A stretch of 38,957 nucleotides of DNA from Deltaproteobacteria bacterium. Its GTDB lineage: Bacteria > Desulfobacterota > Syntrophobacteria > Syntrophobacterales > Syntrophobacteraceae. The notes below the pieces were generated by a model. The model ran no database searches and had not been told where the DNA came from. It saw only the letters and a program-made list of their open reading frames with translations. Where the stretch lies: contig JAJYTC010000023.1 of the NCBI GenBank assembly GCA_021793275.1, forward strand, positions 1 to 38,957. Reading direction: 5' to 3'. Shown piece after piece: positions 3,329 through 12,705 of the stretch. Both the position numbers and the translations under genes were made by a program. Numbering within the stretch: the stretch's first letter is position 1; every line of letters begins with the position of its first letter.

Positions 3329-4321
3329 ATGCCTGTCGCTTTTATTACGGGAGCAACAGGGTTCGTTGGACGCCATGTCGCAACCGCCCTGCTTCGCAAT
3401 GGATGGGACCTGAGGGCCCTTTGCCGCGCGCGTTCGCCCCAGTGCATGGATTCGCCGGGCATAGAATGGTTCCCGGGAGACATTCGCAATCCCGCTCAGA
3501 TAGCCGAGGCCATGTCCGGGGCGCAGGCAGTCTTCCATGTTGCGGCCGATTACAGGTTATGGGCCAAAGACCCGAGAGAAATTTACGAAAGCAACGTGAC
3601 CGGGACGATCAACGTCATGCAGGCCGCTTTGGCCGCCCGCGTCGACAGGGTTGTCTATACGAGCAGCGTCGGGGCCCTCGGGCTGACCCGTGACGGGACC
3701 CCGGCCGATGAAAACACTCCCGTCTGCCTCGATGACATGGTAGGACATTACAAAAGATCGAAATTTCTCGCGGAGCGCGAGACCGAGAAATTCTTGCAAA
3801 TTGGACTGCCGGTGGTGTTTGTTCATCCGAGCACGCCGGTAGGTCCGGGAGACCATAAACCAACACCGACCGGTAAGATCATCGTCGATTTTCTTAACAG
3901 GAAAATGCCCGCCTATCTTGAAACCGGTCTTAATATCGTCGATGTTAGGGATGTTGCCGAAGGGCACAGGCTCGCTTTTGAAAAAGGCAAAGCAGGCGAA
4001 AAATACATTCTGGGCAACCGCAACCTGACGCTTGCGCAGATCTTTTCAATGCTCGAAAAGATTTCAGGGGTGCCGGCGCCGACGGTAAAGCTGCCCTATG
4101 GACCAACGTTATGGCTCGCCCGTTTTTTCAAGCTCGTCTCGTTGGTTACCCGCAGCCAGCCGTTGATCCCCTACGAGGGGGTAAGGATGGCGGCAAAGCG
4201 TATGTATTTTGACAGCTCCAAGGCGGTAAGGGACTTAGGGCTGCCTCAGACCCCCGTTGAGACGGCTTTGTCTGATGCAGTGGGCTGGTTTGAACAAAAC
4301 GGATATGTGAAACGGCGCTAG
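3329..4321 (+). CDS. hpnA: Hopanoid-associated sugar epimerase HpnA (extended SDR)
   Basis: This 330-residue protein belongs to the extended short-chain dehydrogenase/epimerase family. The NAD(P)-binding motif TGATGFVG is at residues 7-14. The YxxxK catalytic pair is Y141 and K145 (YKRSK), with the catalytic Ser in TSSVGALG upstream. Its size and start match HpnA of hopanoid clusters, which is thought to modify the sugar-derived side chain. AAGGGG eight bases before the ATG supports the start. hpnH follows 60 bases downstream in the same direction, which strengthens the call. Its exact substrate is not established. A generic NAD-dependent epimerase/dihydroflavonol reductase is the alternative, less likely in this context. 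Confidence 0.85.
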   Translation: MPVAFITGATGFVGRHVATALLRNGWDLRALCRARSPQCMDSPGIEWFPGDIRNPAQIAEAMSGAQAVFHVAADYRLWAKDPREIYESNVTGTINVMQAALAARVDRVVYTSSVGALGLTRDGTPADENTPVCLDDMVGHYKRSKFLAERETEKFLQIGLPVVFVHPSTPVGPGDHKPTPTGKIIVDFLNRKMPAYLETGLNIVDVRDVAEGHRLAFEKGKAGEKYILGNRNLTLAQIFSMLEKISGVPAPTVKLPYGPTLWLARFFKLVSLVTRSQPLIPYEGVRMAAKRMYFDSSKAVRDLGLPQTPVETALSDAVGWFEQNGYVKRR

Positions 4322-4381
4322 AAGCGAAAAAAGCGGCAGCGAAGCAATTACGGCTCACTGCTCAGGAGGATCGAGGTTCGG

Positions 4382-5377
4382 ATGCGTTTTCCAATCAGTC
4401 TTTACATTTCGATGACCGGCTGGCTCGCCGGCAATAAACTTCGTGGAAACGAGCGGTTTCCACTCGTATTGATGCTCGAACCCACTCACAGGTGCAATCT
4501 GACCTGTTCGGGCTGTGGAAGGATTCGAGAATATCACGATACGCTTTCCAAAGAGATGACCCTCGAAGAGTGCCTGACATCGATCGAGGAAGCTAAAACA
4601 CCGGTGGTGACCATTACGGGCGGAGAACCCCTGCTCTACTCGAAGGCCCCGGAACTGGTCCGTGAAGCACTCGCCCGGCGAAAGCACATTTATTTTTGCA
4701 CCAACGGTATGCTGCTCGAGGAATCGTTGTCACTTTTCAAGCCTGACCAGCATTTTACCTGGAACGTCCATTTCGATGGGACCGAGCCGGTTCATGACCT
4801 CATAATCGGAAGGCCGGGAGGGTTCCCAAAAGCCCTTGCGGGCGTAAAAGCCGCCAAGAGCAGGGGCTTTCGCGTAAGCACAAATACCACAGTCTACAGG
4901 GAATCCTCGGTCGAAGACCTCTACAGGCTCTTTGAGCAACTCACGCAGGCCGGGGTGGACGGCATCCTTGTGGCCCCGGGTTTCAGCTACGAAGAAGTCG
5001 TACGGGATGTTTTCCTGACAAAAAACGAGATAGTGAAAAAATTTCAGGAAATCAGCACCTGGGGGAAAAAATTCCCCATTATCAGTAATCCCCTCTACCT
5101 GGAATTCGTAGCCGGGAAAAGATCGCTCAAGTGCACGCCCTGGGGAAATCCAACCCGTAACCCGCTGGGCTGGAAATCGCCGTGCTACCTCATTACGGAC
5201 ACGCATTACCGCACTTTTGCGGAGCTGATGGAGCGCACCGATTGGGACCATTACGCTTCGGGGGCCGACCCCAGATGCGCCCAGTGCATGGTCCACTGCG
5301 GCTACGAGCCGACCATAGTGCGTCAGATGGGATTCAAGGACATGTTACGCATGCTCAAGTGGAACATCAATGTATGA
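4382..5377 (+). CDS. hpnH: Radical SAM adenosylhopane synthase HpnH
   Basis: The radical SAM CX3CX2C motif is C38, C42, C45 (CNLTCSGC), followed by a glycine-rich GGEPLL motif, as in the family. HpnH attaches the adenosyl group of SAM to diploptene to give adenosylhopane, the first step in making C35 hopanoid side chains. The length of 331 residues is typical. AGGAGG at 4364-4369 supports the start. The 3' end overlaps the next gene by 8 bases, implying translational coupling. HpnG, which acts on the HpnH product, is encoded on the other strand at 7411-8178. The C-terminal Cys-rich part (CAQCMVHCGYEP) resembles the auxiliary or SPASM-like ends of this group. Confidence 0.9.
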   Translation: MRFPISLYISMTGWLAGNKLRGNERFPLVLMLEPTHRCNLTCSGCGRIREYHDTLSKEMTLEECLTSIEEAKTPVVTITGGEPLLYSKAPELVREALARRKHIYFCTNGMLLEESLSLFKPDQHFTWNVHFDGTEPVHDLIIGRPGGFPKALAGVKAAKSRGFRVSTNTTVYRESSVEDLYRLFEQLTQAGVDGILVAPGFSYEEVVRDVFLTKNEIVKKFQEISTWGKKFPIISNPLYLEFVAGKRSLKCTPWGNPTRNPLGWKSPCYLITDTHYRTFAELMERTDWDHYASGADPRCAQCMVHCGYEPTIVRQMGFKDMLRMLKWNINV

Positions 5378-6209
5378 GTTCCTGAGACTTCTTTGGGGAA
5401 CCATCCGTCTGCGCCCTTATGTTTTTGCTTTCCTGGCCGTCTATCTTGTAGCGGGCTGGCGCCATTTCGGCTGGAAGAAAACCCTGGTCTATCTTCCCGT
5501 GGGCTACTCGCTGGCATGGCTTTCCGAATTTTCGTCGATTCACTGGGGTTTCCCCTACGGCGATTATTTCTACATAAACACCACCGCCGGCAGGGAATTG
5601 TGGGTTTTAGGGGTCCCGTTCATGGATTCGCTTTCTTACGTTTTTCTTTCTTATTGCAGCTACTCGCTCGCCGTTTTTTTGATGAGCCCGGTTGCGCTCA
5701 GGTCGGGAAATCTTATCACGGGCGAAACCTCGCAAATAAGGCGCTCATGGTCGACGCTGGTCCTGGGAGCGTTCCTTTTCGCGCTGCTGGACGTGATTAT
5801 CGATCCGGTAGCCCTGCAGGGCCGGAAGTGGTTTCTCGGCCTCATTTACGGATACCGGCATGCGGGGTTCTACTTCGGGATCCCGATGAGCAACTTTGGG
5901 GGCTGGCTGCTGGTCGGCTTCGTTTTAACCGCTGCTTTGCAGGCCCTGGAACGTATGGACCCTAAAGGCTCAAAACTCCATTTGCCCGCAGGCCGCGCGT
6001 CATGGATGAGGCTGCTTGGACCCGTGCTCTACTTCTCGGTCCTGCTGTTCAATATAACGATCACCTTTCAGATCGGAGAAATGCTTTTGGGCCTGGTGGA
6101 CCTGCTGCTTGTGGCCACCCTGACCGTGCCGATGGTTTTCTTCACAATCTATAAGATCACCCGCGCCGGGGCAGAAGCTCCCCATGCTTTCGCGCAGTCG
6201 GGTCTTTGA
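5370..6209 (+). CDS. CruF-like / DUF422 carotenoid-biosynthesis membrane protein
   Basis: This 279-residue integral membrane protein has about seven hydrophobic segments. The WGFPYGDYFY and FMDSLSYVFLSY regions and the later DVIIDPVALQGRKW stretch are hallmarks of the COG2324/DUF422 family, whose characterised member CruF hydrates carotenoid ends (1',2'-hydratase). It begins 8 bases inside hpnH, so it belongs to the hopanoid operon. That context suggests it acts on a hopanoid or another isoprenoid in the membrane rather than on carotenoids; this is inference. The last codons (FAQSGL, stop) fall inside the direct repeat that recurs at 7368. Confidence 0.75.
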   Translation: MYEFLRLLWGTIRLRPYVFAFLAVYLVAGWRHFGWKKTLVYLPVGYSLAWLSEFSSIHWGFPYGDYFYINTTAGRELWVLGVPFMDSLSYVFLSYCSYSLAVFLMSPVALRSGNLITGETSQIRRSWSTLVLGAFLFALLDVIIDPVALQGRKWFLGLIYGYRHAGFYFGIPMSNFGGWLLVGFVLTAALQALERMDPKGSKLHLPAGRASWMRLLGPVLYFSVLLFNITITFQIGEMLLGLVDLLLVATLTVPMVFFTIYKITRAGAEAPHAFAQSGL

Positions 6210-6267
6210 GGTGGCGGCCTGCCCTCCCGTCTAACTCCGCTCGACCTTGATCTCAGCCGCCACCGTG
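6187..6267. repeat. Direct repeat copy 1, left border of the toxin-antitoxin island
   Basis: The segment 6191-6227 matches 7371-7407 at 35 of 37 bases, and weaker similarity continues for about 40 more bases. It covers the end and stop of the CruF-like gene plus the end of an hpnG-like reading frame on the other strand. The second copy is on the far side of mqsA-hicB-hicA. Confidence 0.8.
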
Positions 6268-6313
6268 GCTGACTGTAAGCCGGTAGCTTCAAGAAAATGC
6301 TCGGCCTCATCGA
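6231..6313 (-). pseudogene. Remnant of a second hpnG 3' end
   Basis: Reading the minus strand before the TAG at 6231-6233 gives a short open frame ending in FLEATGLQSATVAAEIKVERS with its last residue before the stop. It aligns without gaps to the C-terminus of the intact HpnG (FLHRPASELARMAEQIRVEKS). The shared end IxVExS and the conserved flanking DNA show this is a duplicated, truncated copy, cut off by the hicA side of the island. It has no start and is not expected to make protein. Confidence 0.65.
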
Positions 6314-6535
6314 TTACAGTAATTTCAAAAATTCATCCACGGTCATCCCTGAAAGACTGATGAGCTTGCGCAAGGTCCCTGTTGATAGCTCTTTATGCTG
6401 AGGGATGGAAAGATTGACTCGGGTTCCAGCTTTGACCATCACAAGATGGCTTCCAACTTGGCCGATTGCCTGCCAGCCGGCTTTTTCAAAAGCCTTGGCA
6501 GCTTCCTTGCCCGATATATTACCCAGTTTCCCCAT
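6314..6535 (-). CDS. hicA: HicA-family toxin (mRNA interferase)
   Basis: This 73-residue protein has the HicA double-stranded-RNA-binding-like fold. It shows the N-terminal GKEAAKAFEKAGW helix, then the catalytic His in GSHLVM (H30), then the strand VNLSIPQHKELSTGTLRKL. HicA cleaves mRNA and is neutralised by HicB. It lies 3 bases after hicB, the antitoxin-first order seen in many hicBA pairs, so the two are co-translated. Length and His are intact, so it should be active. Its stop is immediately next to the duplicated hpnG remnant. Confidence 0.9.
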   Translation of the reverse strand: MGKLGNISGKEAAKAFEKAGWQAIGQVGSHLVMVKAGTRVNLSIPQHKELSTGTLRKLISLSGMTVDEFLKLL

Positions 6536-6538
6536 GAT

Positions 6539-6754
6539 TTAAACCGTCACCATCAACGGCTTTTGCCTCTTTTGTTCTGATAGGGCTGCGACGGCTTTTT
6601 GGTCTTCGGCCCAAAGCCATGCAGTTATGGCCTCCTTTATGTTCTCGATTGCCTCTTTCTCATCTTTTCCTTGTGAAACACATCCGGGAAGGGCCGGGCA
6701 CTCGGCGACGATCCAGCCATCCTCGGCTTCTTCAAGAGTGACATGGAAAATCAT
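6539..6754 (-). CDS. hicB: HicB-family antitoxin
   Basis: This 71-residue protein has the partial RNase-H-like HicB domain (HVTLEEAEDGWIVAECPALPGCVSQG, described by its start FHVTLEE and the CPALPGC core, then EAIENIKEAI). It lacks the C-terminal DNA-binding extension present in longer HicB proteins, ending soon after the helix. It can therefore bind the toxin but may not repress transcription itself, a role the upstream MqsA-like gene could fill. TGAGG seven bases before the ATG supports the start. It is 78 bases downstream of mqsA in the same direction. Confidence 0.88.
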   Translation of the reverse strand: MIFHVTLEEAEDGWIVAECPALPGCVSQGKDEKEAIENIKEAITAWLWAEDQKAVAALSEQKRQKPLMVTV

Positions 6755-6832
6755 ATCTCATCCTCATTACATACACCTGGCAAAAACCTATTCCCTTTTC
6801 TCCAAAATCGCGCCTCATTTCTTCGTGTTACG

Positions 6833-7234
6833 CTAAGCCGATTTGACCTCCGTCAGAAGGTCCGGGTGGCGTTCAAGCACCTTTAGCAGCTTTACCAGCG
6901 CCAGTGGCGGCTTGGTCTTGCCGTTCTCGTAGCGTGAAAAGGCATTAACGCCACCGCCAAAAATCTCGCCGGCTTCGCGCTGATCGAGATCGAGCTTCTT
7001 GCGCACACTCGCAATAAATGCCGGATCGACATAGGCGGCGTTGACCTGCCTTTGAAACATTCCAATCAATTCGCTGTAGCGGTCGCCTTGTTCGCGGTTC
7101 AGGACAACCTCGGCGCAAGCAGGGCAGAAATCTCCCGTCACCGATGGAATGATGGTCGTTTCACCCTTGTAGACATAGGATATGTCGCGGGTGTCGTGGA
7201 TCAATTCAGCAGCCCCGCAGCACGGGCATTTCAT
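6833..7234 (-). CDS. mqsA: MqsA-family antitoxin/transcriptional repressor without an adjacent mqsR
   Basis: This 133-residue protein has the two-domain MqsA layout. The N-terminal zinc domain has C3, C6, C37 and C40, the same positions as in E. coli MqsA. The C-terminal helix-turn-helix contains RKKLDLDQREAGEIFGGG and NAFSRYENG, with the DNA-contacting N97 and R101 retained. MqsA binds the MqsR toxin and represses its own promoter. In the usual order mqsR lies immediately upstream, but the 176 bases up to hpnG contain no such frame. hicB and hicA follow instead. AAGGAG seven bases before the ATG supports the start. A likely operator lies upstream at 7299-7313. Confidence 0.9.
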   Translation of the reverse strand: MKCPCCGAAELIHDTRDISYVYKGETTIIPSVTGDFCPACAEVVLNREQGDRYSELIGMFQRQVNAAYVDPAFIASVRKKLDLDQREAGEIFGGGVNAFSRYENGKTKPPLALVKLLKVLERHPDLLTEVKSA

Positions 7235-7298
7235 ATTACAACTCCTTGAAAGAAACTATCAATTCGCAGTGCGGCCTACGCTTTTCCATCCAATAAAA

Positions 7299-7367: not shown

Positions 7368-7448
7368 CTTTCGTGCAGCCGGGTCTTTGAGGTGGCGGCC
7401 TGCCCTCCGCTCAACTTTTCTCGACCCTGATCTGTTCCGCCATCCTGG
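7368..7448. repeat. Direct repeat copy 2, right border of the toxin-antitoxin island
   Basis: This copy carries the 3' end of the intact hpnG together with a fragment that, on the plus strand, reads PFVQPGL-stop, matching the FAQSGL-stop end of the CruF-like gene in copy 1. Each border therefore holds one intact gene end and one orphan end, as expected if the cruF/hpnG junction was duplicated around the inserted genes. Confidence 0.8.
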
Positions 7449-8178
7449 CCAGTTCGGAGGCAGGGCGATGCAAAAAAGCGGCGACCGAGGCGCACAGGTT
7501 TTTTGCCGCCAGACTGGAACTGCGCCATAAAAGGTAAAAGGCCAACAGGGTCGAGGGCCTTTTCATGATCGTCGCAAATACGCGCAGAACCCTTACTCTG
7601 CCCTGTTCGTCGGAAATATCCTCCAGGTTGAACCCCAGGTCGTGGTCGACCGGGTCGCTTACCGCTCGGAAACAGATGAAGGGTATTTGACGCGACGAAG
7701 CCTCCTCGGCCACAATCGCGGTTTCCATGTCCAAAACGGCCGGCTCGCCGCAAGCAAGGGCCGAGAGGACCTGCTTATTGCCCGGGGTCTGGGCGGTAAG
7801 CGCCAGGACAGGCGCGACTTGATTTTCGGCCAAAAATTGAGCCAGTTCGTCTGAAAACTCAAAACTATACATCGTCTCAGCCTCGATGCAGCGAGTTTTC
7901 GCCGCAAAGCAGACCGATCCGGCAACCAGATCCGGATGGAGTCCGCCGGCAAATCCCGAAAATAGGAGAAGCTCCGGAAAAAGCCCCTCCAGTTCGCCGG
8001 CTAGCGCTTGTCTAACCGCCTTATCTCCCATGCCGCTTTCGATCAAGATTACTTCTTTTCCCGGCAGATTCCATGCAAATTTTTTGGGCGGCTTTTTCCG
8101 CACAGGGCGCAGAGCCGGGAAAAGCTTCTTAAGCGGCGCGTATTCCTGAGGCAGAGCCGATAAGATCACAATTTTCAT
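7411..8178 (-). CDS. hpnG: Hopanoid-associated nucleoside phosphorylase HpnG
   Basis: This 255-residue protein is of the purine nucleoside phosphorylase / MTA-SAH nucleosidase superfamily. It starts with MKIVILSALPQEY, has the phosphate/ribose-loop region (ESGMGDKAV, FSGFAGGLHPDL) and ends the core with LDMETAIVAEEA and AVSDPVDHDLG, the base- and ribose-binding elements. HpnG removes adenine from adenosylhopane, the product of the nearby HpnH. I chose the ATG at 8178 rather than the upstream in-frame ATG because it gives the family start and overlaps the stop of the phosphodiesterase gene as ATGA (translational coupling). Futalosine hydrolase or an MTA nucleosidase are alternatives from sequence alone; the context favours HpnG. 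Confidence 0.82.
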   Translation of the reverse strand: MKIVILSALPQEYAPLKKLFPALRPVRKKPPKKFAWNLPGKEVILIESGMGDKAVRQALAGELEGLFPELLLFSGFAGGLHPDLVAGSVCFAAKTRCIEAETMYSFEFSDELAQFLAENQVAPVLALTAQTPGNKQVLSALACGEPAVLDMETAIVAEEASSRQIPFICFRAVSDPVDHDLGFNLEDISDEQGRVRVLRVFATIMKRPSTLLAFYLLWRSSSLAAKNLCASVAAFLHRPASELARMAEQIRVEKS

Positions 8179-9035
8179 GAGAATCTCTGAGGAAAATCGG
8201 TAAAAATTCCATCCGCGCCCATCGCCAGACAAGCCCACGCGGACACAGGATTGTTCAAAACCCAGACCAGCACTCCGAACCCCTTTTTCTTCAATCTTCG
8301 AACCTGCATCGGACGAAAAGCGCGAGGCGAGGGATTAAAGGTGAAAGCATCCAACTCGGCCATCAATGCGGCTGGATCGGGCTCCAATCTTTCGGTCAGC
8401 ACGCCGGTTCTTATCTCCTTGTCCAATTTTCGCGCTTGCGCCAGGTAGTAATGATTGAAAGAGGAAACAAGGACCCTCTCGGACGCGCCGGCCTGTCGCA
8501 CCACGGCGATGACCTTTTCGACAACCGACTCATGGCCCGGTCGCCCCGCCAGATCCTTGATCTCTATATTCAGAAGCCAATCGTTTTCGACCGTGAACCG
8601 GATCGCTTCGGTAAGAGTCACTACCTGTTCGCCGCAATATTTTTCGAGTTCCCGTGGAGATACCCGGCCCGCGGCAATCTGTTTGAAAGGATCGGCCTTC
8701 CCGAACCAGGAACCGAGATCAAGGGTCTGGAGTTCCTGCAGAGTAAATTCGTCAACAAGCCAGGGAGCCCGCCCCGGGAATTTATCTTGCGCGTCGGATA
8801 TTCGTTTCAGGTCGAAATCGTGGACCAGCACAGGTTCTCCGTCTCTGCTCAATCGAACGTCGATTTCCCACATAGCGGCGCCTGCGGCAAGGGCCAAACG
8901 GGCTGCAGCCAGGGTGTTTTCAGGCGCAAGCGAGCGCGCTCCACGATGCGCTACGATTAGACGCCGCTTTTTAACGGCGTTAAAAATGGTATGTACCATA
9001 AAAAACCCGTCGGTCGAACCTCCGTAAAATACCAT
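8175..9035 (-). CDS. Glycerophosphodiester phosphodiesterase family protein
   Basis: GDPD TIM-barrel enzyme: the start of the domain IVAHRGARSLAPENTLAA carries the HRG...PENT signature, followed by EIDVRLSRDGEPVLVHD with the metal-binding ExD and the second catalytic His. NIEIKD and the C-terminal GADGIFTDFP motif complete the fold. The family hydrolyses glycerophosphodiesters to glycerol-3-phosphate and an alcohol. The stop overlaps hpnG by four bases, so it is in the hopanoid arm; a role in a polar head group is possible but not shown. The start is uncertain: ATG 9035 (286 residues) or ATG 8999 (274 residues), the latter with GGAGG 18 bases upstream. No signal peptide is evident. Confidence 0.85.
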   Translation of the reverse strand: MVFYGGSTDGFFMVHTIFNAVKKRRLIVAHRGARSLAPENTLAAARLALAAGAAMWEIDVRLSRDGEPVLVHDFDLKRISDAQDKFPGRAPWLVDEFTLQELQTLDLGSWFGKADPFKQIAAGRVSPRELEKYCGEQVVTLTEAIRFTVENDWLLNIEIKDLAGRPGHESVVEKVIAVVRQAGASERVLVSSFNHYYLAQARKLDKEIRTGVLTERLEPDPAALMAELDAFTFNPSPRAFRPMQVRRLKKKGFGVLVWVLNNPVSAWACLAMGADGIFTDFPQRFS

Positions 9036-9405: not shown

Positions 9406-11568
9406 ATGAACATAGCTCTTGTTTTTCCCCCCTTCTATTTCGAGCCTATGTACAACCTGCCTCCGCTAGGCCTCATAAATCTTGCCACAGCCCTCAAACC
9501 CTCGCCTCATACAGTAAAAATATTCGATTTTCCGCTCGATATTCGCCGCAAAACGCTGTCGATGGACAAGAATATTTATGCTCGATGCGCCAGGCAAATC
9601 CTCGATTTTTCACCCGATGCAGTCGGATTTTCGGTTCAATGCACAACCTACCCTCCGGCGGTCAATATCGCGCGAGAATTGAAGAAACTGGATCCACTGC
9701 TAAAGATCGTATTCGGTGGCCCCAATGTATCGTCCATAGATGAGCTTACCCTTTCGCGATTCCCGTTTATCGACGCGGTGGTGCGCGGTGAAGGAGAAAT
9801 TGCTTTCCCGGAATTGATCGGGGCTTTCGAAGGCCGGGTTGCCCCGGAATCGGTAGAGGGGGTAACACTGCGCGGATCGGACAGGATAGTGCGTAATCCC
9901 GACCGGGAACTTATAGAAAACCTCGATTGCCTGCCGGTAAGCGATTATACGTTCGTACCTCCTTTCAGCGAATACCGCGACGCCTGCGGGATCGGGCGCT
10001 CGATCGCCATACTGGAGGTCGGCAGGGGGTGTCCGCACCGGTGCGTCTATTGTTCTCAATCGATCATGTGGAGACGAAGGCCAAGGACATTTTCAACAGC
10101 GCGAATCATCCAAGAGATGAAGAACCTGGCCGATCATTTCGGCGCCGAGTGCTTTCTGCTCGCCTTCGACCAGTTTACCGCAAGGAGAAGCTTTGCTGAA
10201 CAATTCTGCCATGGCCTCATAGATGCCGGTCTCGATCGCCTCCCATGGTACTGCATCTCGAGGCTCGACACTGTCGATAAAGAGCTGCTCGATTTGATGC
10301 GCAGGGCCGGATGCGAGACGATGTGCTACGGGATCGACTCCGGATCGAAAAGGACACTGGCTTTCATTCACAAGGACATTGACCGCGAAATCCTCTTCGA
10401 CAGGGTCAGGGAGACCACGGAGGCAGGAATCGTCCCCACCTTGAGCTTCGTGATCGGATTTCCGGAGGAAGAGAGGCAAGATCTCGAAGAGACTCTCGAA
10501 CTCGCATTAAGAGCCGCCGCTACGGGAAATACGAACGTTCTGGTGCAGATGGCCACCATTTTGCCCGGGACCGAGCTGTACACTAAATACAGGCACATGC
10601 TGGTTCGAGAAGTCGACACCTATTTCTCGCTCGGAATCGAGTTCGACGAAGGCAGACGATTGGCATCCGATGACATGCTGATCGATTCGGAACCGACGAT
10701 TTTCAGCAGTTTCCACAACCTGCCCTGCCCTGCCGGGACACTGGAGGAGCTAAATGAGACGGCAAGCTACTTCACCGTAATCGCAGCCCTCTATCCGAGG
10801 AGTTTTCTACTGCTTGGCATCGAGTTGGGCCTGCCCGTCGTCGACCTCTTTTTCCGTTTTCTGGAAAGTGTTGCCCAAAAGGAGATAGAGCTCTCGGGAG
10901 CGGCCTTTTCGCCGGCGATCCCCCAACCGAGTTCAACCGGCGCCGGGCCTCGCCGCCGCCTCTCGCCCCTGGCCTGCCTGGCGCATTTCGAAGATTTTGC
11001 CGCCCAATGCCTTGCCCGGCGTGACGTGGTTGTGCGTGAGTTCATCCCCGAACTCATAAAGTATGAAACGTGCCTTTTCAGGGCCGGTGAAACCGCAGGG
11101 CCGGCTTCGCCGTTTGTCATCGACCCCGGCGGGATACACAGCTTGAAACCGTTGCGTAACCGGAAGGTTTCAATCGAGCGGTTCACATATGATATCCCAG
11201 GTCTTATCTTGCACTTCAGATGCGGCCATTTCCCGGATTCGTGCCGGCAAAGGCCGGTTTTTCTCGCCTTCTCCCGGGCGCCGGGCGGTACGAAGGTTCG
11301 AGAAATTAACGAATTCGGGGTCGATTTTCTCGGGTTGTGTGACGGGCAGATCACCTTAAAGGATATTGCAGACAGACTTTACCTGAAATACGGAGCAGAT
11401 AAAGAGCGCGGCGAATTCGCCGCCGAATGCGCGGAAGCTGCCGCAACGCTTGCCGGTATCGAGCTTCTTGCGCAGGAGGAAAAGCCTTATCACGAAAAGA
11501 AAGGAGGTGAAACGGATGCTCCAGGTGAAGGATATCGAGAAAAAGATCCTTGTAGCGGCAGTCGATGA
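9406..11568 (+). CDS. B12-binding radical SAM enzyme with C-terminal PqqD-like (RRE) region
   Basis: This 720-residue enzyme starts with a cobalamin-binding Rossmann domain (about 1-160; VFGGPNVS, VVRGEGE). The radical SAM core follows (about 200-430) with CX3CX2C at C209, C213, C216 (GCPHRCVYC). An uncharacterised segment (about 430-620) holds a Cys-containing CGHFPDSC. Residues about 625-690 (VREINEFGVDFLGLCDG, then TLKDIADRLYLKYG) look like PqqD, the RiPP precursor recognition element. Related enzymes methylate or epimerise peptide backbones. I start at ATG 9406 because GGAG sits well before it and the B12 fold begins there. The last 18 or so codons are low-complexity because a peptide gene overlaps in another frame. 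It is not HpnP or HpnJ, which lack the PqqD end. Confidence 0.85.
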   Translation: MNIALVFPPFYFEPMYNLPPLGLINLATALKPSPHTVKIFDFPLDIRRKTLSMDKNIYARCARQILDFSPDAVGFSVQCTTYPPAVNIARELKKLDPLLKIVFGGPNVSSIDELTLSRFPFIDAVVRGEGEIAFPELIGAFEGRVAPESVEGVTLRGSDRIVRNPDRELIENLDCLPVSDYTFVPPFSEYRDACGIGRSIAILEVGRGCPHRCVYCSQSIMWRRRPRTFSTARIIQEMKNLADHFGAECFLLAFDQFTARRSFAEQFCHGLIDAGLDRLPWYCISRLDTVDKELLDLMRRAGCETMCYGIDSGSKRTLAFIHKDIDREILFDRVRETTEAGIVPTLSFVIGFPEEERQDLEETLELALRAAATGNTNVLVQMATILPGTELYTKYRHMLVREVDTYFSLGIEFDEGRRLASDDMLIDSEPTIFSSFHNLPCPAGTLEELNETASYFTVIAALYPRSFLLLGIELGLPVVDLFFRFLESVAQKEIELSGAAFSPAIPQPSSTGAGPRRRLSPLACLAHFEDFAAQCLARRDVVVREFIPELIKYETCLFRAGETAGPASPFVIDPGGIHSLKPLRNRKVSIERFTYDIPGLILHFRCGHFPDSCRQRPVFLAFSRAPGGTKVREINEFGVDFLGLCDGQITLKDIADRLYLKYGADKERGEFAAECAEAAATLAGIELLAQEEKPYHEKKGGETDAPGEGYREKDPCSGSR

Positions 11569-11599
11569 GGCGCCGACAACCTTTGTCGTACCGACCTGA
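11516..11599 (+). CDS. Putative 27-residue RiPP precursor peptide
   Basis: A 27-codon frame with the near-ideal ribosome site AAGGAGGTGA six bases before its ATG. The peptide begins MLQVKDIEKKIL (charged, leader-like) and ends in a hydrophobic, Thr/Val/Pro-rich tail APTTFVVPT, a plausible core. It overlaps the last 53 bases of the radical SAM/RRE gene in another frame and is followed by a stem (11614-11630) and a strong terminator, a common precursor-gene layout. No homologous peptide was recognised. The role is inferred from position, size, the ribosome site and the RRE domain of its neighbour. It has no Cys, Ser or Gly repeats, which limits the possible modification chemistry. Confidence 0.55.
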   Translation: MLQVKDIEKKILVAAVDEAPTTFVVPT

Positions 11600-11655
11600 C
11601 ATGCCCCATCGGAATCTCCGGTCCGGAGATAAGAAACCTTGAACCTGCTTAATAT

Positions 11656-11690
11656 TCGGGGGGCGCAGAAATGTGCTCCCCGATTCTTTT
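11656..11690 (+). terminator. Terminator between the peptide gene and the M19 peptidase gene
   Basis: A 12-base stem (11656-11667 with 11672-11683, two G-U pairs) closed by a GAAA tetraloop is followed by TTCTTTT. It would end or attenuate transcription after the peptide gene. Because the ATG at 11671 lies in the loop and right arm, it argues against that ATG as the start of the peptidase. Confidence 0.8.
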
Positions 11691-11736
11691 GGGCAATTCC
11701 ATTCAATCATGGACTACGCGAGGTTTGTTTGACCAA

Positions 11737-12705
11737 ATGACGGTAAATCCCAACTTTGAACCTGCCCGGACTGAGGCGGTTGTCCGAATCGACGGACATG
11801 TCGATGTGCTGTATGAAATGCTTGAAGCGCACAGTGATGTCTCTTTCGATAATTTGCCCGACCTGGCCGTAACTGTGGATAAAATGAAAAGCGTAGACGT
11901 CGTGGCCGCGGTATTTGCGCTTTACTGTCCGGATGAGTATGACGGAAGCGGCTCGAAAGACTTTCTGGCCCATCTCCTGGCTTACGCCGAGCGTCTCCTG
12001 AAGGGGCTTTTTCACATAAAATCCGCCCAAGACCTGAGTGATTGCATCCGGTTGAAAAGACCCGGAATGATCTTGCTCATCGAAAACAGCGACGGCTTGA
12101 TCGAGTTTGATCGTACAATGCTCGCGCAGGCCGGCGTCAGGGTGGCCGGCCTCACGCACATGGGAAGAAACAGGCTCGGGGACGGCAACGCGGTTCCCTT
12201 TCCCGAAGGCCTGACCGAACAGGGAAAGGATCTGGTAAAGGAACTCGCGCGCGAAGGTTTCGCATTCGATGCAGCCCATTTGGCGGAGCCCGGTTTTCGC
12301 GACCTGGTGCGGCTGCACGAGGGACCGCTAATATCCTCGCACACCGGGGTGCGGGCGCTTGCAGACATTCCGAGAAACCTTACCAGAAATCAGGTTGCCG
12401 CCATTATCGAACACAAAGGGGTCATCGGAATAGCCGCCGATCCGAAAATGCTCACACTTTCGGGCAAGGCTTCAATCGACGACATCTTCCATCACATCGA
12501 CTGGATTGCCCAGTCCTTCGGCGCCGACGCCATCGGCATAGGCACCGACTTTTGCGGCTTTGAGGGCATAAACGCCGGGTTCGAAGACATAACGAAGATG
12601 ACCGACCTGGAGCGGATAATGCGCGAACACGGGTATCCGGAAAAAAGTATTCGCGCAATAATGGGAGAAAACTGGCGCATTTTCTATGAATCGCTGCTGC
12701 AATAG
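11737..12705 (+). CDS. M19 (membrane/renal dipeptidase) family peptidase
   Basis: This 322-residue zinc dipeptidase-type TIM barrel has metal-binding HxD in DGHVD near the N-terminus, the bridging Glu in IENSDG, a His in DAAHL, a His in SSHTG, and the Asp of GIGTDFCG, covering the M19 metal and substrate set. Family members hydrolyse dipeptides, including D-amino-acid-containing ones. The frame is open from 11671, but that ATG is within the terminator, so ATG 11737 is preferred although its GAGG is 14 bases away. It follows the radical SAM/peptide pair, so it could trim the modified product or recycle its leader; this is inference. No signal peptide is visible. mscS converges on it downstream. 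Confidence 0.85.
   Translation: MTVNPNFEPARTEAVVRIDGHVDVLYEMLEAHSDVSFDNLPDLAVTVDKMKSVDVVAAVFALYCPDEYDGSGSKDFLAHLLAYAERLLKGLFHIKSAQDLSDCIRLKRPGMILLIENSDGLIEFDRTMLAQAGVRVAGLTHMGRNRLGDGNAVPFPEGLTEQGKDLVKELAREGFAFDAAHLAEPGFRDLVRLHEGPLISSHTGVRALADIPRNLTRNQVAAIIEHKGVIGIAADPKMLTLSGKASIDDIFHHIDWIAQSFGADAIGIGTDFCGFEGINAGFEDITKMTDLERIMREHGYPEKSIRAIMGENWRIFYESLLQ

Follow-up and report, generated by a model that had tools for sequence, protein, structure and literature searches.

The window analysed here is a stretch of 38,957 nucleotides from a deltaproteobacterium of the family Syntrophobacteraceae (assembly GCA_021793275.1, contig JAJYTC010000023.1, positions 1 to 38,957 of the forward strand), whose genome (G000) is a draft of 97% completeness. 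Between positions 9,406 and 12,705 it carries, in a row, the gene of a B12-binding radical S-adenosylmethionine (SAM) enzyme, a short peptide gene that begins within the 3' end of the first, and the gene of an M19 metallopeptidase (Table 1). An earlier note on this DNA, made from its letters alone, had listed these three genes and proposed that they form a system for a ribosomally synthesized and post-translationally modified peptide (RiPP). Open reading frame (ORF) calls and Pfam find all three where the note had placed them, and the core of its proposal is borne out by the conservation of the short peptide at the same place in relatives and by a C-terminus of the enzyme that folds, by structural comparison, as a leader-binding domain. 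What the note missed are the putative insertion of selenocysteine (Sec) into this peptide, the Cys-His-Ala-Pro repeats of related peptides, a second, unlinked precursor and a methyltransferase resembling OvsM and OvoM. The candidate Sec-containing precursor and its maturase, as the radical SAM enzyme is called here, are our subject.

Table 1. Positions and main characteristics of the features discussed (window coordinates, except for the last row)
Feature	Position	Strand	Remarks
B12-binding radical SAM maturase, 720 aa	9406..11568	+	ATG 9406; ORF calling and Pfam
Maturase domains			B12-binding, residues ~16-137; radical SAM core, 204-367; helical linker; C-terminal RRE, ~585-690
RiPP recognition element (RRE) domain, maturase residues 585-690	11158..11475	+	AF2 model and VIA
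Shine-Dalgarno sequence of the precursor gene, AAAGGAGGTG, within the maturase gene	11500..11509	+	GGAGG at similar spacing in relatives
Precursor gene, predicted 38 residues with Sec at 28: MLQVKDIEKKILVAAVDEAPTTFVVPT-U-HAPSESPVRR	11516..11632	+	Stop TAA 11630-11632
In-frame UGA, predicted to be read as Sec	11597..11599	+	Aligned with Cys of CHAP in Cys-type orthologues
SECIS-like hairpin, AUCUCCG-GUC-CGGAGAU	11614..11630	+	Near-invariant in 14 genomes
Terminator-like hairpin, 12 pairs, T-rich tail, directly 3' of the precursor	11656..11683	+	Similar ones after relatives' precursors (by eye)
M19 (membrane dipeptidase family) metallopeptidase	11671..12705	+	PF01244 188.6 bits, cut-off 26
Methyltransferase copy of the window genome, unlinked	G000:C148:6987-7952		

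The peptide gene was originally read as encoding 27 residues, which corresponds to the frame 11516-11599 that is closed only by UGA. The good ribosome site that the note had seen for this tiny gene is indeed there, a GGAGG eight bases before the ATG at 11516, and it lies within the 3' end of the maturase gene. The length has to be revised, because the UGA, in all likelihood a Sec codon, was misread as a stop and the precursor would comprise 38 residues. In close relatives the leader is followed by TGA CAY GCN CCN [AT]CN [GC]AR TCT CC[GA] GTN CGG AGA and a stop; HAP[ST][EQ]SPVRR stands directly after the UGA in 14 genomes, and conservation 3' of the UGA ends at the closing stop codon. Among the ten codons after the UGA, the variable columns in these genomes number 2, 0 and 7 at codon positions 1, 2 and 3, respectively, and coding sequence is conserved on both sides of the in-frame UGA. 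A hairpin is superimposed on this frame, UCUCCG-GUN-CGGAGA, in which the synonymous sites of Ser-TCT, Arg-CGG and Arg-AGA never vary across the 14 genomes, unlike the third positions of the H, A, P and S/T codons 5' of it, which drift. Judged from the alignment, the variation after the UGA is the pattern of coding sequence plus RNA structure. Bacterial Sec insertion sequences (SECIS) place their apical loop 16-37 nucleotides after the UGA and have a G or GU in the loop; here the apical loop lies 20-21 nucleotides past the UGA and contains GGUN, by which distance and loop the window hairpin would qualify as such an element. Because both the coding tail and the hairpin after the UGA are conserved, in a frame that closes at 11630-11632, the codon at 11597-11599 almost certainly encodes Sec, as far as sequence can tell, with tail codons that would double as the SECIS.

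Maturase orthologues are encoded by 16 of the 59 related genomes, and additional ones occur elsewhere in the phylum. Downstream of them, almost all related loci have one common leader in a constant position, mostly ML[QK][VI]K[ED][VI]EKK (the window precursor begins MLQVKDIEKK, and a segment of its leader reads MLQVKDIEKKILV). Distant orthologues are accompanied by peptides with Cys repeats in place of Sec, e.g., CHAPSCHAPSCHAP... or SCHAPSCHAPSCHAPTCHSPTCHSPSCHGPA. CHAP with the same leader occurs in 12 loci, with Cys at the UGA position, and CHAP arrays are found in loci L049, L050 and L064-L072. Sec-type peptides keep the five-residue register of these repeats (CHVPT-UHAPT in L048, SHVPT-UHAPT in L045), and since U shares this register the UGA position is that of Cys; in one genome (G005) Cys-type and Sec-type precursor genes lie side by side. 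Sec-type precursors have one motif site and Cys-type precursors three to nine, and in every copy of [U/C]-H-[A/G/S]-P the Cys or Sec stands immediately before His. The invariant part of these peptides is UHAP or CHAP instead of the tail TTFVVPT, in which the earlier note had sought the modified residues. The window genome also holds a second, unlinked precursor of the Cys type (MLQVKEVEKRSAIVNSGENTSCHAPSCHAPACHGPGERGVLLAGKSNS, on G000:C139), as do five sister genomes.

These peptides follow the maturase closely. The UHAP pattern occurs once each in 14 of 17 maturase-positive genomes, always at this locus, and in 0 of 43 genomes without maturase, and a reversed control pattern gave 0 matches in the 60 genomes. 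Tandem CHxP is present in eight of the 60 relatives, every one maturase-positive, and in 13 of 395 genomes of the phylum, of which 11 have the maturase and several repeats and the remaining two show isolated single matches without such a peptide gene. With these two chance matches set aside, the tandem Cys form is found in 11/13 maturase-positive versus 0/382 other phylum genomes; Fisher values for this co-occurrence are indicative only, given the shared ancestry of the genomes. What identifies a RiPP precursor, a conserved leader and a repeated or invariant core motif that co-occur with a maturase, is present here, and none of the peptides exceeded a cut-off in NCBIfam, weak and low-complexity matches being all that Pfam and NCBIfam returned for them.

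Some precursors show peculiarities of their own. In G015 (L047) the closing stop is also TGA, which results in two UGA codons in frame with a single hairpin. In the draft of G001 (L043, 4400-4560 of the reversed locus) the precursor is apparently deleted, the maturase ending in what is otherwise the precursor's tail, ESPVRR, and an unlinked CHAP precursor is kept. The second, unlinked CHAP precursor of G002 (contig C93, L182, ~7900-8060) immediately precedes a HAD-like gene, yedF (YedF 6670-7275, 211 bits) and selD (SelD 5581-6543, 363 bits), which places a Cys-type precursor near selenium-metabolism genes. In L180, L183, L184 and L185 (G000:C139, G006:C7, G007:C163 and G010:C36, respectively) the unlinked CHAP precursor adjoins a BadF/HgdC-type ATPase and 2-hydroxyacyl-CoA dehydratase-like proteins (double-cubane type, by eye).

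The machinery for Sec incorporation is encoded in the window genome. Its tRNA-Sec scores 74 bits, in agreement with ARAGORN, and its SelA 618 bits. A search with family models left SelB seemingly absent from this genome, and with the SelB of a relative as query a contig-end fragment was revealed, comprising the last 158 residues at the contig edge with 91% identity to the SelB of a sister genome. Full-length SelB is present in every other genome of the genus. SelA, SelB and tRNA-Sec are hence all represented, SelB as a fragment.

The maturase contains no SPASM domain, its Pfam architecture being B12-binding (57.7 bits), Radical_SAM (75.5 bits, with C209, C213 and C216 as the CxxxCxxC of the core) and PqqD. 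The PqqD match at residues 626-668 reaches 22.2 bits and remains under the Pfam cut-off of 23.4, and PqqD is detected in 12 of 25 orthologues. The earlier note had described the C-terminus as PqqD-like and suggested an RRE, a suggestion that structural comparison upholds. Modelled alone with AlphaFold2 (AF2), this domain has a predicted local distance difference test (pLDDT) score of 92 (86.5 for the full protein), and with VIA it matches the TbiB1-leader complex (Z 9.1), lasso B1 (8.7), MibB (7.7), PqqD (7.5 and 7.0) and CteB (6.7), with TglHI and LynD/TruD also among the RRE matches, whose overall range is Z 9.1-6.1. Foldseek alone returned no significant match for the domain (best E 0.037). 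According to the model, the C-terminus of the maturase is a true RRE fold. The N-terminal two thirds match the B12 radical SAM enzymes CysS, AprD4, OxsB, MgmA, TsrM and TokK. The nearest named family is ApyD (NF050148), with 254.7 bits for the window protein and 245.8 and 260.9 bits for related maturases, all below the curated cut-off of 750; ApyI (NF050149) matches the C-terminal part of two orthologues with 29 and 25 bits, below the cut-off of 200.

In 10 of the 11 Cys-type loci outside the genus of the window, the Cys repeats are followed, at a distance of 76-666 bp, by the start of a methyltransferase gene. OvsM is a 5-selenohistidine N-methyltransferase and OvoM a 5-thiohistidine N-methyltransferase; together with OvoA they are the best solved relatives of the linked methyltransferase in the PDB. 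The unlinked copy of the window genome prefers OvsM (84.6 bits versus 57.5 and 58.6). The methyltransferase is present in 13/13 maturase-positive versus 32/382 other genomes of the phylum. It is not exclusive to this system, because some other genomes pair it with a molybdopterin oxidoreductase: in the maturase-free loci L109, L111, L112, L114 and L115 it is followed by such a protein of ~690 aa (by eye).

As third gene of the row, the M19 peptidase proposed by the earlier note is confirmed by its Pfam score, and it has the H-x-D motif (H43, D45) and, aligned to solved M19 enzymes, the metal ligands of the family. Its annotated start and the constancy of its presence did not hold to the same extent. 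The start at 11671 falls inside the terminator-like hairpin, and the ATG at 11737 is, on alignment, the probable true start because relatives align from about residues 15-40. Among the Sec-type loci whose sequence extends far enough, nearly all have M19 after the precursor, as do several Cys-type loci of other families, at 39-60% identity; its presence is usual and not constant. The further idea that the peptide is epimerised and then trimmed at D-residues by M19 is left without support; a terminator-like hairpin lies between the precursor and M19. In five loci a class V pyridoxal phosphate enzyme (SufS/SclA/EgtE-like) lies convergent to M19 and is a possible C-S/C-Se lyase.

In the pathway that we propose, translation through the UGA with Sec would produce a leader followed by a single U-H-A-P core motif and ending in SESPVRR. 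The RRE of the maturase would then bind the leader, allowing the enzyme to modify the [U/C]-H-[A/G/S]-P motif. That the locus consists of a Sec-containing ribosomal precursor and a dedicated maturase, these two steps taken jointly, has in our estimate a probability of about 0.78. The invariance of [U/C]-H-[A/G/S]-P and its co-occurrence with the maturase make it likely that this motif is what the enzyme modifies, also in the unlinked Cys precursor of the window genome. Subsequently, the selenium of Sec or the sulfur of Cys may be joined to, or co-modified with, the imidazole of the His next to it; a Sec-His- or Cys-His-derived unit would be set free by proteolysis and by the M19 dipeptidase; and the OvsM/OvoM-like methyltransferase would N-methylate the resulting seleno- or thiohistidine. 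Such a product is suggested because Cys or Sec precedes His everywhere, the branch of the methyltransferase fits, and a dipeptidase and a possible lyase are at hand. An anaerobic, peptide-scaffolded route to ovothiol- or ovoselenol-type compounds is, on this basis, a tentative proposal to which we give somewhat less than even odds. The complete chain, an oxygen-independent ribosomal pathway in which Sec and its neighbouring His are fused by a B12 radical SAM enzyme, released by proteases that include M19 and N-methylated by an OvsM-like enzyme, is held a shade more tentatively still.

Several observations weigh against this interpretation. Concerning Sec, Rfam matched no SECIS family in the SECIS region, the SECIS-like stem is too invariant for covariation, and SelB is only fragmentary in the window draft genome; concerning the pairing of peptide and enzyme, the precursor is apparently lost at the locus in G001, which has another elsewhere in its genome. 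A strongly conserved hairpin with a terminator-like hairpin next to it is also what would be expected if the peptide ended at the UGA, after 27 residues, and the conserved bases 3' of it were an RNA element only, such as an attenuator or terminator. This is highly improbable in view of a post-UGA variation that falls on third codon positions with HAP[ST][EQ]SPVRR preserved, of a motif that matches CHAP in register and of a tail that is missing from all Cys-type peptides; moreover, the SECIS-like hairpin lacks a U-run, and the real terminator-like hairpin lies ~25 bases further 3'. Alternatively, the maturase might act on a small molecule, e.g., a hopanoid, next to an unrelated small protein, as HpnA and HpnH are encoded within about 6 kb upstream and lipids are substrates of some B12 radical SAM enzymes. 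However, hopanoid genes adjoin the maturase only in close relatives, every lineage conserves the precursor, its occurrence goes with that of the maturase, and the maturase's RRE matches leader-binding domains, which makes this alternative very unlikely.

The objections to a seleno- or thiohistidine product are more substantial. Most enzymes of the maturase's fold methylate carbon, and its nearest structures, B12 radical SAM methylases together with OxsB/AprD4, make C-methylation as natural as the formation of a C-S or C-Se bond; to attack a carbon of the imidazole ring would be chemically unusual. The methyltransferase scores 80.5-111 bits against TIGR04345, short of the cut-off of 170, 32 of the genomes sampled have it but no maturase, it is unlinked to the locus in Sec-type genomes, and M19 is missing near some Cys-type loci. 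The main rival, to this last part of the pathway only, is methylation of the His, Ala, Pro or Cys/Sec beta-carbons of [CU]HAP. The product would remain a peptide, perhaps metal-binding or redox-active, with the methyltransferase N-methylating His and M19 recycling fragments. B12 radical SAM enzymes usually methylate, the best family match, ApyD, carries the annotation of a RiPP radical SAM enzyme, the structural neighbours CysS, TsrM, TokK and MgmA are methylases, and Cys-His repeats every five residues suit metal binding. Nevertheless, C-methylation alone leaves unexplained both the OvsM/OvoM-type identity of the adjoining methyltransferase and the replacement of Cys by Sec at a single site, and a dipeptidase is an odd partner for a product that remains a peptide; we regard it as a serious possibility that falls well short of being probable. 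As to M19 itself, the terminator-like hairpin that separates it from the precursor and its absence near several Cys-type loci would suit a bystander or general dipeptidase, which is nonetheless unlikely for a gene that follows the precursor in nearly all Sec-type and several Cys-type loci despite 39-60% identity.

Of the 119 families and subfamilies of prokaryotic selenoproteins inventoried in 2026, one is a RiPP, the selenobacteriocin TIGR04081 with the motif SGUG (PMC13188914), whose maturase is SbtM (PMC11002830). The SbtA-SbtM pair of Geobacter lovleyi yields a thio(seleno)oxazole RiPP, as these two papers relate from Lewis et al. (2021). As far as their accounts go, the window system would share with selenobacteriocin a UGA-encoded Sec with a following insertion element in a ribosomal precursor, and a Cys/Sec peptide as the substrate of a radical SAM maturase. 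According to the same accounts, SbtA has the SGUG motif and two Sec, whereas the window precursor has one UHAP, and SbtM is a radical SAM-SPASM protein, whereas the window maturase binds B12 and ends in an RRE. None of the system's peptides matched TIGR04081 in NCBIfam. Differing in motif, maturase architecture and partners, this is very probably a second family of selenocysteine RiPP precursors, unrelated to TIGR04081. The window maturase also resembles a fusion of ApyD and ApyI of the aminopyruvatide RiPP cluster, with both curated cut-offs far from reached; unlike in that cluster, neither an MNIO nor a P450 was identified in the conserved surroundings, and the ApyD/ApyI substrate motif is presumably unrelated to [CU]HAP. 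With the ovothiol and ovoselenol pathways (OvoA/OvoM, OvsM) the system has in common a similar methyltransferase and a Cys or Se source combined with His. In the known ovothiol route an oxidative sulfoxide synthase joins free Cys to free His (PMC12631010), whereas here Cys/Sec-His lies in a ribosomal peptide, with a B12 radical SAM enzyme as its partner, in anaerobic hosts. Homology of the methyltransferase to OvoM/OvsM is partial, with an extra Trm112-like N-terminus. CefA (NF038108) resembles the CHAPx repeats in its five-residue spacing of Cys, but the matching Cys-type peptides score 13.7-19.5 bits against a cut-off of 30, and the Sec-type peptides do not match. The open literature searched contains neither a description of this system nor a link between thiohistidine and radical SAM RiPPs, and papers on the system may exist elsewhere.

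A UGA that resembles a stop hides the precursor from gene callers, and its Cys counterparts are clear across several families of one phylum. The system ties the genetic code, through Sec, to radical SAM/B12 peptide chemistry and to thio/selenohistidine methyltransferases. If the proposed pathway holds, anaerobes could make thio- or selenohistidine compounds without oxygen-dependent sulfoxide synthases, and selenium would enter a small metabolite via the 21st amino acid.

Among the other neighbours, the hopanoid genes HpnA and HpnH score above cut-off within about 6 kb of the maturase, and the regions 3329-6209 and 7411-8238 of the window comprise HpnA, HpnH, a CruF-like membrane protein and an HpnG-like phosphorylase (below cut-off). 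The hopanoid genes, an amino-acid ABC transporter, GDPD and MscS were considered as pathway parts and rejected, as they are neighbours only in close relatives. On the minus strand, 6314-7234 holds a HicA/HicB-like toxin-antitoxin pair (6314-6754) and an MqsA-like zinc/helix-turn-helix protein (6833-7234), both recognised by eye.

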